Shown in pieces: positions 29,002-43,033 of a stretch of DNA of 64,000 nt. Source of the stretch: Elusimicrobiota bacterium. Lineage in GTDB: Bacteria > Elusimicrobiota > Elusimicrobia > 2-02-FULL-39-32. The stretch is taken from assembly GCA_016180425.1 (NCBI GenBank), contig JACPBF010000008.1:62001-126000 (forward strand). Reading direction: 5' to 3'. Below the pieces are notes generated by a model. It was not told the origin of the DNA. It saw only the letters and a program-made list of their open reading frames with translations, and made no database searches. A program made the position numbers and the translations under genes. Within the stretch, counting starts at the first letter, position 1, and every line of letters starts with the position of its first letter.

Positions 29002-29972
29002 TCATCCGCCTAAAGAACACATAAAAATTTCGCGCGCATTTGCATTTTTCGATTCCATGCAGTGGCGCTCTGGTTTAATTAAAACCGCCTGTTGAATCAA
29101 ATTACAAAGTTCCCCATCGCTGCCTCCAGACCTAATTAGATTTTTAAGATCCACTCCCTTTTCAGAAGCTAAACAAGGAACTAAAATCCCTTTTGCAGTT
29201 AAGCGCAACCGGTTGCATCGCCTGCAAAAATTAGAAGACAATGCGCTAATAAAACCAATGGTTCCCAAAGCCCCTGGGGATTTAAAGTAAGTTGCAGGCC
29301 CAAACCCAAGTGGAGACTCGTCTTGAGATAAAGGAACAAGCTCTCCACAAGCCTGCATAATATCTGAAAGTCCCATCCAATGCTCCCTGCTAAAATAACC
29401 TGTTTCCCCAATAGGCATAAGTTCTACAAAACGAACATGAATTGGAAATTTATGGGTAAGAGCTACAAAATCTCTAATCTCATTGGAATTAATCCCTTTA
29501 ATAACAACCATGTTAATTTTAAGAGGATCAAAACCAACAGCTAAACCAGCGCGAATACCTTCTAAAACTTTTTCTAAACTCCCAAAACGGGCAATGGTTT
29601 GAAAATGTTCCGGCCGCAGCGTATCTAAACTAACATTTACTCTTTTTAAACCAGCTTGGAATAAATCATTCGCCATTTGAGATAAAAGAAGACCATTAGT
29701 GGATAAAGAAATATCTCCGATCCCAGCAAGGCTGGAAACTCTTTTTATCAATGAACAAATCCCTGGACGGACCAAAGGTTCTCCCCCAGTGATCCGAATC
29801 TTATTAATTCCTAAACTACAATGCGTTCAATTTCATCATCTGAAAGAATTTCTTCGGGTTTGGAAAATGAGAAACCTTGAATTGGCAAGCAGTAAAGACA
29901 TCGCAAGTTGCAATGATCTGTTACTGATACACGCAAATAATCAATTCTTCTGCCAAATGAATCGCTTATCAT
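29002..29972 (-). pseudogene. moaA: GTP 3',8-cyclase MoaA, frameshifted by a small internal deletion
   Basis: The first 53 codons (29811-29972) encode the radical SAM start of MoaA with CNLRCLYC near residue 21. The frame then ends in TAG where DDEIERIV should run into the [12 protein letters not shown] region. The rest (GGEPLVRPG... to the C-terminal second cluster NFCRRCNRLRL and LVPCLAS) continues in another frame to 29002. About 25 nt appear to be missing near 29818; the partial copy at 31319-31447 keeps them ([12 protein letters not shown]). Without the repair no active MoaA would be made, though all other Moco genes are present, so a second moaA elsewhere or an assembly error is possible. 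Confidence 0.75.
29708..29818. repeat. 111-bp direct repeat, copy A (inside moaA)
   Basis: Nearly identical (one difference noticed) to 31319-31429, same orientation, 1.6 kb away. It covers the moaA GGEP region. The end of this copy is exactly where the moaA frame breaks. Confidence 0.9.
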
Positions 29973-29986
29973 AAAATTATTGTGCC

Positions 29987-30192: not shown

Positions 30193-31194
30193 CTAAACTA
30201 GGCTGGCAAGGCCTCTTGCATGGACATTTTTGGCAAGAGGGAAAGACTGGTTCCCTGGAAAAATGACAGTGAGTTGGTTAAGCTTTAAATCTTGCATGGC
30301 GATATGCATTGATTTAGATAGTTTTGGGGAATCGCTGAATTTAATTTCATAGCCAAGCCTCTTGCCGTCCTTGATAATTAAAAGGTCAAGTTCAGCTTTG
30401 TTATGGGTTCCCCAGAAATAGGATTCTTCCGGCGCTGCTTTGGAAAGGCGAACGATCTCTTCTAACGCAAATCCCTCCCACGATGCCCCTAATTTCGGGT
30501 GATGCAGAATGTCTGTTTCGTTCTGAATCCCGAGCAGGGCATGAAAAATCCCGGAATCCCGGAAGAAAATTTTAGGTGATTTTATTTGCCTCTTTGCTAT
30601 GTTTTCCCTCCAAGGATAGAGCTGGCGGATCATAAATGTGCCGCTTAAGATATCGAGATAACGTTTAACGGTTGTATCCGCGATTCCTAACGAACTGCCG
30701 ATCTCAGAGGCGTTGAAAATCTGCCCATGATAATGAGTGAGCATCATCCAAAACCGTCTCAAAGAGTTAGAAGGAATTTGAATTCCCAATGCGGGGATAT
30801 CTCGTTCAAGGTAAGAGGCAATAAAGGACTTACGCCATGCGCTGCTCATTGAAGAGGTTCTGGCAAGGAACGATTTGGGGAATCCCCCGCGCAGCCACAA
30901 TTTACGAATCCCAGAGATTCCTGTTTCGTTTATGTTAAATGGAGTTAGCTCGATGAATTGAATTCTGCCCGCGAGCGATTCGGAGCTTTGTTTGATAAGA
31001 TCCCGCGAAGCGCTTCCTAAAATAAGAAATTTCGTTTTGATTTTTGGGCGGTCCGGACTAGAAAAATGTTTATGATCCGCAGCGATCATCCGGGCTAATG
31101 TTGTTTTACCGCATTGGCGGGGACCTAAGATGCCGACAACGGAATGGATACGAAATGCCTGCCTAATCTCTCTTATAAATTCTGGACGCTCCAT
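30193..31194 (-). CDS. AAA-type ATPase with DUF4143-like C-terminus, internally deleted
   Basis: Protein of 333 aa resembling the widespread ATPases that end in a DUF4143 nuclease-like domain. Walker A GPRQCGKTTLAR is present near residue 24. However, the sequence passes directly from about residue 45 to PKIKTKFLILGSASRDLI, skipping the roughly 50 residues that normally hold Walker B and the DEIQ motif. The C-terminus has FWGTHNKAELDLLI...GYEIKFS, which matches the nuclease-like core. Probably inactive as ATPase. It lies between the two moaA fragments and came in with the rearrangement. Confidence 0.7.
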   Translation of the reverse strand: MERPEFIREIRQAFRIHSVVGILGPRQCGKTTLARMIAADHKHFSSPDRPKIKTKFLILGSASRDLIKQSSESLAGRIQFIELTPFNINETGISGIRKLWLRGGFPKSFLARTSSMSSAWRKSFIASYLERDIPALGIQIPSNSLRRFWMMLTHYHGQIFNASEIGSSLGIADTTVKRYLDILSGTFMIRQLYPWRENIAKRQIKSPKIFFRDSGIFHALLGIQNETDILHHPKLGASWEGFALEEIVRLSKAAPEESYFWGTHNKAELDLLIIKDGKRLGYEIKFSDSPKLSKSMHIAMQDLKLNQLTVIFPGNQSFPLAKNVHARGLASLV

Positions 31195-31465: not shown

Positions 31466-32791
31466 TCAATAACTCTTTTTTAAACCCTTATCCCAATGGT
31501 CCCAAAGGTAAGATTTTTCTTTTCCATCTGCGATCACTCTAAATGCGTAATGTACCTGCTCCTTATAAAATTCGCAAAAAGCGCCTTTTTTACGCATGCT
31601 CCCATTCATTTCATAAACCTCTGCGGGACAGGGTGAACCGCAAAAATTACGAATAACGCAACTCTGGCATGATTCAACATCCTCTACTTTTCTCTTAGTC
31701 ACTAGATTGAAAGGCTGACTCATCAGAATATTAGAAAGCTCATTCTTAAAAATGTTCCCACCTTTAAACATAGGAAGACCAATGAATTCACTACAAGGGA
31801 ATATATCCCCGTTTGGCGCTAAAGCAAAAAAACATCTGCCCCCGCCGCAAGGCGAAATATCGCACATCAATCGTCTGGCTGTAGGAGCAATGATTGCAAG
31901 AAGGATATTAGCAAAATTAGCTACAAGCAGCTTTCTCCCTGTTTCTTTATAAAGTTCATAAGTACGGTCTAAAGCAGCTAAAAAATATTTTGATGCGATC
32001 TGATCTCCAGGCTTTAATTTTCGAGAATATGACATAGTGCAGCGCAAAACATTTAAAAGACAATTCGGAACCTCGTGACTATGAAAAAACTCGACTAGCT
32101 CTACAAGATAACGCATATTTTTACTTGTAATGGTTGAGATCACACTCCAGTTCGGATAACCTCTTAAACATTCCATAGAATCTACAATTTTCTTATAAAC
32201 CCCCTGGCCGCTCCAGTTTTTGCGGGTGAGATCAGCAATTCCCTCAATCGCCGCATCCAGAGAAATCCCAATACTAATATGATGACTGATTAGGAATTCC
32301 ACTGATCTCTTATCCAATAGGGTGGCATTAGTTTGAATTCCAAAACGAAAATCATTCTTATATCTTTCAATAGCGGCAAAGACCGGTTTTTGATTAAGCA
32401 TTGGTTCTGCTCCATGAAAAACAATTTCCCCTAACATTCCTTTAGGCAAGGTTTGCTTAAAATATCTTTTCAAAATTTCTAATGCTTCCAGGATGCGTTC
32501 CTCACTCATAGAATCACCATTTCTTCGCATCTTTTCAGGAAGGTAACAATAGGAACAGTTTAAATTACATTTTTCAGTAGGATTAAAATAAACAGCAGAA
32601 GGTTTTTGGGTAAACCGTAATGCGTCCATTTCCTTTTTAAACTTCCAAGATTTCTTGGCAAAGGATTGAAAAATTCCTCTTTGAGATAAGGTTTTCTCAA
32701 TCTGATCCTGTTGAACCAAAGCCCAAAAAGCAGTATCAGGCTCTATGAAACAGTTATATTTGGAATGTCCTATGTCTAAAAGCTGAAACAT
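31466..32791 (-). CDS. peptide-modifying radical SAM/SPASM enzyme (CbpB-like)
   Basis: Radical SAM protein of 441 aa from ATG 32791 (a TTG lies one codon upstream). The [4Fe-4S] motif CNLNCSYC is at residues 76-83, with [12 protein letters not shown] as the SAM-binding GGEP equivalent. The C-terminal SPASM Cys set is [35 protein letters not shown] and FCEFY. SPASM enzymes of this size commonly cross-link or modify short peptides. A 38-aa basic peptide gene ends 23 nt upstream, and both lie behind a cobalamin riboswitch. From memory this matches a predicted family pair named CbpA/CbpB; no product is known to me. Confidence 0.8.
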
Positions 32792-32814
32792 CAAACTGTC
32801 TATAAATCTTTAGA

Positions 32815-32931
32815 TCACTTGGTTTTATTATTTATTGATATGTAATGAGTTAGACCTGTGCCTTGAATATTAGATGTTTTCCTAACTGCAATAATTTTTT
32901 TTTGATTTCTTACTTTTTTTGATTTTTTCAT
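32815..32931 (-). CDS. 38-aa candidate precursor peptide (CbpA-like)
   Basis: Small gene with an excellent ribosome site (AAGGAG, 6 nt before ATG). The peptide is very basic in its first half (MKKSKKVRNQKK, then IIAVRK) and ends in a Gly/Thr/His/Tyr core, GTGLTHYISINN. No Cys. It begins about 55 nt after the riboswitch terminator, and its stop is 23 nt before the radical SAM/SPASM gene. The layout is that of a ribosomally made, post-translationally modified peptide. Likely leader is the basic half and likely core the GTGLTHY part (inference). Confidence 0.75.
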   Translation of the reverse strand: MKKSKKVRNQKKIIAVRKTSNIQGTGLTHYISINNKTK

Positions 32932-32986
32932 TGATTTCTCCTTTTAACCTGGCTTTCACATCTAGTTTAACCTCATTTGTAAATAA

Positions 32987-33027
32987 AAAAGGGTTCTAAC
33001 AAAGTTTATGTTTGTTAGAACCCTTTT
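32987..33027 (-). terminator. intrinsic terminator of the cobalamin riboswitch
   Basis: Perfect inverted repeat with 17-nt arms (core GGGTTCTAACAAA, 32991-33003, and its complement 33011-33023) and a 7-nt loop. On the minus strand it is followed by TTTTTTATTT. It lies between the riboswitch and the peptide gene, so it is the expression platform. Confidence 0.88.
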
Positions 33028-33082
33028 CCATCAGATTCCATCGCGCACTAATTTCTACAGCAAAAACAACTAAAACAAATCT

Positions 33083-33247
33083 TTCAGCAGGTCTTCTGGC
33101 TTTCCTTCTTTTTTAAACCTTCCCATCCAGTTTTAGACTAGACAGTGGCATTCCTTAAAAAAGTTTTCTTTTCATTCTTAAAAAAGAAAAGAACATGGAT
33201 TACAGCGGCGGGACCGCCACGGACTCTAACCGTGTTCCTTATTGCTG
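33083..33247 (-). ncRNA. cobalamin riboswitch
   Basis: On the minus strand the element opens with CAGCAATAAGGAA, continues with GAGTCCGTGGCGGTCCCGCC and GCTGTAATCC, then GCCACTG, GGGAAGG, and closes with the B12 box AGCCAGAAGACCTGCTG (33085-33101). CAGCA and TGCTG form the closing stem. All main conserved blocks of the AdoCbl riboswitch are present. With the terminator 56 nt on, high cobalamin should switch off the peptide/radical SAM genes. Confidence 0.93.
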
Positions 33248-33262
33248 AAAATTTATGATGAT

Positions 33263-33290
33263 ATTATATTTCTCTCGTATAACCGTTAAA
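33263..33290 (-). promoter_or_regulatory. sigma-70-type promoter of the riboswitch transcript
   Basis: Minus-strand -35 TTTAAC (33285-33290), 16-nt spacer, -10 TATAAT (33263-33268), about 16-20 nt before the riboswitch begins. Unlike the nitrogen and respiratory units, this cassette uses no -24/-12 site. Confidence 0.6.
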
Positions 33291-42908: not shown

Positions 42909-43033
42909 TGGCAACGCTATCAGGATTTGAACCTGAATTTCCGTTCTTTAGATGAATACGAAATTTATCTCTCCCCATTTCAATATTTTTTCGCATTCTT
43001 AAAACAGCGTCCTTGCCGTTAGACGATAGCGTC
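42909..43033 (-). tRNA. tRNA-like gene (Glu/Gln type) with a 57-nt anticodon loop
   Basis: Read on the minus strand: acceptor GACGCTA pairs with TAGCGTT (7 bp, one G-U). The D arm is GTCT-AACGGCAA-GGAC, the anticodon stem CTGTT/AACGG, the variable loop AAAT, and the T arm TCAGG-TTCAAAT-CCTGA. Discriminator G and an encoded CCA follow. TC at 8-9, the GTCTAACGG D arm, the 4-nt variable loop and G73 point to tRNA-Glu or Gln. The anticodon loop is 57 nt (42946-43002), 50 more than normal, and contains its own 10-bp hairpin (42989-42998 with 42954-42963). No splice gives a clear Glu or Gln anticodon. Could be an interrupted tRNA, a specialised tRNA-like RNA or a decayed gene. Confidence 0.7.

Follow-up and report, generated by a model that had tools for sequence, protein, structure and literature searches.

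The stretch of DNA analysed here (the window; 64,000 nucleotides from an Elusimicrobiota bacterium) carries on its minus strand a cobalamin riboswitch, an intrinsic terminator, a 38-codon gene and a gene for a radical SAM/SPASM enzyme. On balance these probably constitute a B12-repressed cassette, cbpAB, in which CbpB modifies the small peptide CbpA and the resulting product helps the cell in acquiring, assembling or handling corrinoid or cobalt. The pair has been known by name for some years, through the NCBIfam families TIGR04164 (CbpA) and TIGR04163 (CbpB), and these names already appear in NCBI annotation, as they do for Methylovirgula sp. HY1 and its plasmid pHY1. As far as could be found it has neither a described product nor a paper of its own, since a search of the open-licence literature on CbpA/CbpB, radical SAM enzymes with cobalamin riboswitches, cobalophore and cblX/Y/Z returned none on the cbpAB system.

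The cbpAB locus and its leader RNA

Riboswitch, terminator and cbpA, up to where cbpB begins, occupy positions 32791-33290 of the window, and the earlier note, which had described this set of elements from the letters and their open reading frames, was right in both respects. The aptamer (33069..33264, minus strand) is matched by RF00174 in cmscan from 33264 to 33069 with 61.8 bits (E 6.9e-13), well past the Rfam gathering cut-off of 31.5 bits and over the full length of the model (1-189), and it contains the B12 box AGCCAGAAGACCTGCT (33101 to 33086, minus strand). The element had been called an AdoCbl riboswitch; the riboswitch stands, whereas the ligand was specified too closely, the match being to the general cobalamin family. 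Downstream lies the terminator (32985..33027, minus strand), a 17-bp stem (33027-33011 with 33003-32987) closed by a 7-nt loop (33010-33004) and followed by a T-tract, as strong as the earlier description had it. A simple terminator scan of the window made no call at this hairpin; the folding energy of the 301-nt leader lies 4.6 sd below that of dinucleotide-shuffled sequences.

The leader is conserved well beyond the window. That of the sister species (L010) is 96% identical, including the aptamer, and the same hairpin stands at the same place in relatives, a ten-sequence alignment of which reveals two-sided compensatory changes in 9 of 16 terminator pairs and a nearly invariant GGAATCYGATGG directly 5' of the hairpin. 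Between aptamer and terminator, the element GGAATCTGATGG (33028..33039, minus strand) is near-identical in relatives from other phyla; its GGAATC is, as judged by eye, complementary to the 5' strand of the terminator stem, which makes it a candidate antiterminator half.

The gene cbpA (32815..32931, minus strand) runs from an ATG at 32931 to a stop at 32815, is preceded by the ribosome binding site AGGAG (32942-32938, minus strand) and encodes a putative precursor peptide of 38 aa, MKKSKKVRNQKKIIAVRKTSNIQGTGLTHYISINNKTK. Its stop is separated by 23 nt from the start of cbpB (31466..32791, minus strand), exactly the arrangement first reported, and the enzyme begins at an ATG at 32791 or a TTG at 32794, giving 441-442 aa that end at 31466. 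CbpB has the Pfam domains Radical_SAM and SPASM and scores 677.4 bits against TIGR04163 (cut-off 375) over the entire model (1-428 of 428). Its radical SAM motif CxxxCxxC (C75/C79/C82, ATG numbering) and its SPASM cysteines (C310, C315, C333, C375, C378, C384, C388 and C406) are intact, as had been noted, and these cluster cysteines are invariant in 84 sequences, the window included.

The peptide is a more divergent family member. It reaches 26.8 bits against TIGR04164 (E 2.6e-6), below the cut-off of 35, in large part because a Cys typical of the family is replaced by Ser; the peptide of the sister species scores 22.9 and six typical members score 42.6-56.9. Its GTGLTHY core nevertheless matches the motif GTGL[S/T]H[Y/F], and gene order and cobalamin riboswitch setting are those of the family. 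The names CbpA and CbpB, which the earlier note had given for this arrangement, prove correct. A further difference is that the window CbpB is devoid of the N-terminal stretch G-x-[YF]-x-N-[TS]-G-x-GP present in most members. A truncation unique to this genus was considered and rejected, the same stretch being missing in a proteobacterial clade. The four elements are found in the same order in the sister species and, beyond it, in dozens of loci of other phyla, so that their co-occurrence is more than chance.

The peptide core and a natural Cys-to-Ser change

Across 81 CbpA peptides the core follows the consensus R[K/R]xCxxxGTGL[S/T]H[Y/F], or in its longer form VIAxR[K/R]xCxxxGTGL[S/T]H[Y/F]. 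Counting from the first Gly of GTG, R at -7, K/R at -6, G at 0 and +2, L at +3 and H at +5 are fixed; +4 is S/T/A and +6 is Y/F. The Cys at -4, four residues before GTG, is kept in 79 peptides; the two in which it is Ser are those of the window (position 20) and its sister species, that is, one genus only. The earlier interpretation, which holds for the identity of the genes, their pairing and B12 repression as the direction to be expected, is therefore to be amended on one point: a core without Cys describes the window peptide and not the family. Acquisition of the Cys-less form from a neighbouring family was rejected, the only other member found (family 9 genomes, class 235) being the Cys-type locus L008.

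Conservation of CbpA at the protein level is strongest across phyla in the C-terminal 25 residues, and the N-termini are variable and Lys-rich. Between the window and the sister species cbpA has 2 synonymous and 6 non-synonymous changes, too few to judge constraint, with GTGLTHY unchanged. Searched against the PDB, CbpA matched only by chance, through tag-like sequence at its N-terminus. At another locus (L011, 1330-1402, upstream of cbpB) the peptide gene seems to be degenerate or to carry a frameshift at an A-run, and its alternative frame reads KKCKANGTIKYLH to a stop.

The enzyme has not decayed along with the loss of the Cys. Comparison of the window cbpB with that of the sister species gives a dN/dS of ~0.15 (22 non-synonymous and 35 synonymous codon changes), a value that resembles those of neighbouring respiratory genes, and cbpB is on these comparisons under purifying selection. 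Departures from nearly fixed residues that are specific to the genus include P121G, Q122E, H382N, A392V and R414H (ATG numbering). Since the Ser lineage keeps CbpB under selection without the Cys, either sulfur is not essential, or oxygen replaces it, or the function has shifted.

Structure and likely chemistry of CbpB

The AF2 model of CbpB (pLDDT 92, pTM 0.91) begins with three strands and two helices in the first 60 residues, which could be a small leader-binding module. The nearest solved structures are the SCIFF maturase CteB (5WGG/5WHY; TM 0.74), the closest full-length one, and then the sulfatase maturase anSME (4K36-4K39). Both of these enzymes act on peptide Cys or Ser.

The resemblance to CteB bears on what CbpB makes. 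It is conceivable, with a substantial though less than even chance, that CbpB forms a thioether in the manner of ranthipeptide or sactipeptide maturases, joining the conserved Cys to a residue of GTGLSHY, and that in the present genus this activity has been lost, leaving the enzyme drifting or recruited to another reaction. CteB, itself a thioether maturase, is closest to CbpB in both solved fold and sequence, and shares with it N-terminal beta-strands and helices before the radical SAM barrel and the form PCxxF[IV]G after the SPASM Gx4C; however, identity is ~20%, the substrate of CteB is a six-Cys peptide and CbpB scores 101.6 against TIGR03974, where 425 is required. The best non-self NCBIfam match, at 148.7 bits (cut-off 340), is another thioether maturase, PapB of the ranthipeptide system PapA/PapB (NF047865), which joins the Cys of a Cys-X3-Asp/Glu motif to its Asp/Glu (PMC9413430). 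In typical CbpA the Cys-X3-Gly is spaced like this Cys-X3-acceptor arrangement of PapA, and the Cys is invariant in almost all CbpA peptides. On the other hand, CbpA has a single Cys and no Cys-X3-Asp/Glu, the window peptide has no Cys whatever, and loss of the Cys has not been accompanied by decay of CbpB, whose cluster cysteines and low dN/dS persist, while both Ser-type species retain the riboswitch, the terminator and GTGLTHY.

The natural substitution of Ser for Cys would also fit if CbpB, like anSME, oxidised or abstracted hydrogen from a Cys or Ser side chain, the two residues being interchangeable. anSME naturally uses Cys or Ser substrates, and is close to CbpB by profile as well as by structure. 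This chemistry is nonetheless improbable for CbpB, which scores 126.2 bits against TIGR03942 (cut-off 349.45) and in the alignment has PCSEF where anSME has its PCD-F, so that the Asp beside the SPASM Cys, which we take to be catalytic in anSME, is unmatched. Interchangeability, moreover, would rest on a single event, the swap having occurred in one lineage only. The substrate of anSME is a folded enzyme and not a small peptide. That CbpA is instead a small regulatory or leader peptide, with the substrate of CbpB elsewhere, is very unlikely: modification of CbpA is a prediction and its gene lies between riboswitch and enzyme, a setting in which leader peptides are found, but the gene has its own ribosome site, its protein-level conservation peaks at the C-terminus across phyla, and CbpB falls in a peptide-modifying subfamily by profile and fold.

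Occurrence of cbpAB across phyla

A scan of genome contigs identified 226 relatives of CbpB, of which 80 were fetched, giving the 80 loci analysed here. The pair is rare in the host's phylum (5 of 295 genomes over the cut-off), and among the ~80 relatives, spread over 14 labelled phylum-level groups, every one with sufficient upstream sequence has cbpA ahead of cbpB. Absence of the small open reading frame from homologous loci had been named as evidence that would speak against the pairing; the frame is present at 77 of 80, and the contigs of the other three end at or inside the peptide gene, the C-terminal part of CbpA still being visible in one of them (L101).

The CbpB tree mixes phyla, requiring 29 changes for the 14 labelled groups where the minimum is 13, which suggests that cbpAB has been transferred between phyla, with the caveat that binning and names can mimic such a tree. 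The CbpB of genome G018 (L009), from the host's phylum, is identical to that of L078, named Elusimicrobia. In the isolate Methylovirgula sp. HY1, the pair (NZ_CP073765.1:140838-142417, L123) is on the 278-kb plasmid pHY1, near pqqA/D/E.

Regulation across relatives

Cobalamin riboswitches precede most cbpAB relatives. Of the 80 loci, 47 show the B12-box pattern in the 1.5 kb upstream, a count that includes L084, where it was judged spurious. Among the pattern-positive loci scanned with Rfam, RF00174 was found just upstream on the cbpA strand in 17 of 18, the remaining contig being cut off there, and it was found just upstream in 5 of 9 pattern-negative loci scanned; at L088, L097 and L107 it heads the operon, several kilobases ahead of the pair. 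A terminator between B12 box and cbpA was detected in 32 of 48 loci, as against 0.8% of shuffled regions, and several of the misses are terminators by eye.

Variations on this arrangement exist. At L063 (7871-8299) and L110 (836-1539), where cbpAB stands back to back with a cob operon or btuB, there are two back-to-back cobalamin riboswitches, one for each side. In a proteobacterial clade (L083, L099, L108, L110, L114 and L116) the terminator has no T-run and a CCGATGG can pair with the CATCGG beside the ribosome site, a pattern in the leader suggesting that control has moved from transcription to translation. A riboswitch and corrinoid genes are both missing from the surroundings of some cbpAB loci, pHY1 among them, where no RF00174 was detected at the Rfam threshold in 25 kb around the pair.

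Corrinoid gene neighbourhoods and the host genome

Collection of the genes that lie behind cobalamin riboswitches had been proposed as a check, and the neighbourhoods of the cbpAB loci point to a corrinoid context. Corrinoid genes occur within +-1.5 kb in 24 of 80 cbpAB loci and in 0 of 25 control loci, a rough comparison in which the controls were loci with other radical SAM genes from other genomes of the host's phylum; within 5 kb, 22 of the 80 loci have them, contig ends having shortened many of these loci. Pfam searches with representatives of the neighbour clusters identified CbiB, CobS, CobT, CobU, CbiC, CbiD, CbiQ, CbiM, CbiX, BtuR and FecCD/BtuC among others. At L088, L097 and L107, cbpAB belongs to a single long operon with a riboswitch at its head and stands there between cobUTS/cbiB/cobD and btuFC(D)/btuB; several omnitrophote-like loci have the order cobU-cobT-cobS-cbiB-cobD-[AsnB-like]-cbpA-cbpB-[Dph6-like]-[radical SAM]-btuF-btuC-ABC ATPase-btuB. 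In L008, from the host's class, a nitroreductase (Pfam Nitroreductase) that we take to be BluB-like is directly upstream of cbpA, and cbiE/cbiT-like genes are downstream.

In several corrinoid operons, at L078, L081, L088, L097, L098, L107 and others, cbpAB has as neighbours genes for an asparagine-synthase-like PP-loop protein and a Dph6-like ATP pyrophosphatase, together with one or two more radical SAM proteins, and these could be additional tailoring enzymes. No recurrent exporter or protease was found beside cbpAB among the loci examined, which leaves a secreted scavenger without direct support.

The host of the window possesses a large cob/cbi cluster, two more cobalamin riboswitches that go with it, corrin genes for CbiD, CbiC, CbiX, a CobQ-like protein, CobT, BtuR and tetrapyrrole methylases, and several B12-binding proteins; FecCD matches number one, and that weak. 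From its gene content it looks like a B12 maker rather than a salvager. PF13353, run against the host, yielded nothing further. A role in B12 salvage alone is accordingly less likely for the cassette: if the host makes its own B12, uptake alone cannot explain cbpAB.

Three other features of the window were recorded. moaA (29002-29985, minus strand) has a frameshift caused by a 13-nt deletion, which may reflect recent loss of the gene or a mistake in the assembly, and an intact copy is present in the sister species (L118:6136-7119). Between cbpB and moaA lies an AAA ATPase with DUF4143 (30193-31194, minus strand), absent at this place from the sister genome (L010, L118), which implies insertion on one side or loss on the other. 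A 122-nt tRNA match (42912-43033, minus strand) of only 39.5 bits suggests either a tRNA that carries a long insertion or an unreliable prediction.

A probable B12-repressed cassette and what it may make

Taken with the behaviour of known terminator-type cobalamin switches, the riboswitch and terminator ahead of cbpA point to a cassette that is off with B12, the direction expected from the outset. With corrinoid plentiful, the aptamer would bind it and the terminator at 33027-32985 would form, halting transcription before cbpA; with corrinoid scarce, readthrough would allow synthesis of CbpA, with its Lys-rich leader and conserved core, and of CbpB. We infer that CbpB then modifies the core of CbpA, using SAM and three iron-sulfur clusters, and that the product derived from CbpA serves the cell in obtaining, making or handling corrinoid or cobalt. 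The product of the earlier proposal, a natural product or cofactor, can be narrowed in this way because of shared control and the gene neighbourhoods, which would tie it to corrinoid or cobalt handling. The carriers comprise both B12 makers and salvagers, and a common role in cobalt supply, corrinoid assembly, adenosylation or carriage therefore appears likelier than uptake alone. In the Ser-type genus the product could be altered, for instance with an oxygen where the sulfur link would stand, or the sulfur of the residue may play no part in the chemistry; ether links made by radical SAM enzymes are known in darobactin (PMC9055067).

A short peptide with an adjacent SPASM enzyme yields a small molecule for metabolism in mycofactocin and PQQ, which offer an analogy only, since cbpAB is not accompanied by a conserved PqqD or MftB partner, a protease or further enzymes. 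More tentatively, it is possible that CbpA and CbpB represent a new class of peptide-derived corrinoid or cobalt factor, such as a carrier or a redox or assembly cofactor, that has moved across phyla as a riboswitch-cbpAB unit and of which this genus would have an oxygen-for-sulfur version.

The lasting link of cbpAB to genes for B12 uptake and synthesis across phyla suggests a previously unrecognised, peptide-derived helper of B12 metabolism. The lineage with Ser in place of Cys amounts to a natural experiment: should its CbpB still modify CbpA, a sulfur crosslink is not essential, and the reaction that the enzyme may catalyse is narrowed.
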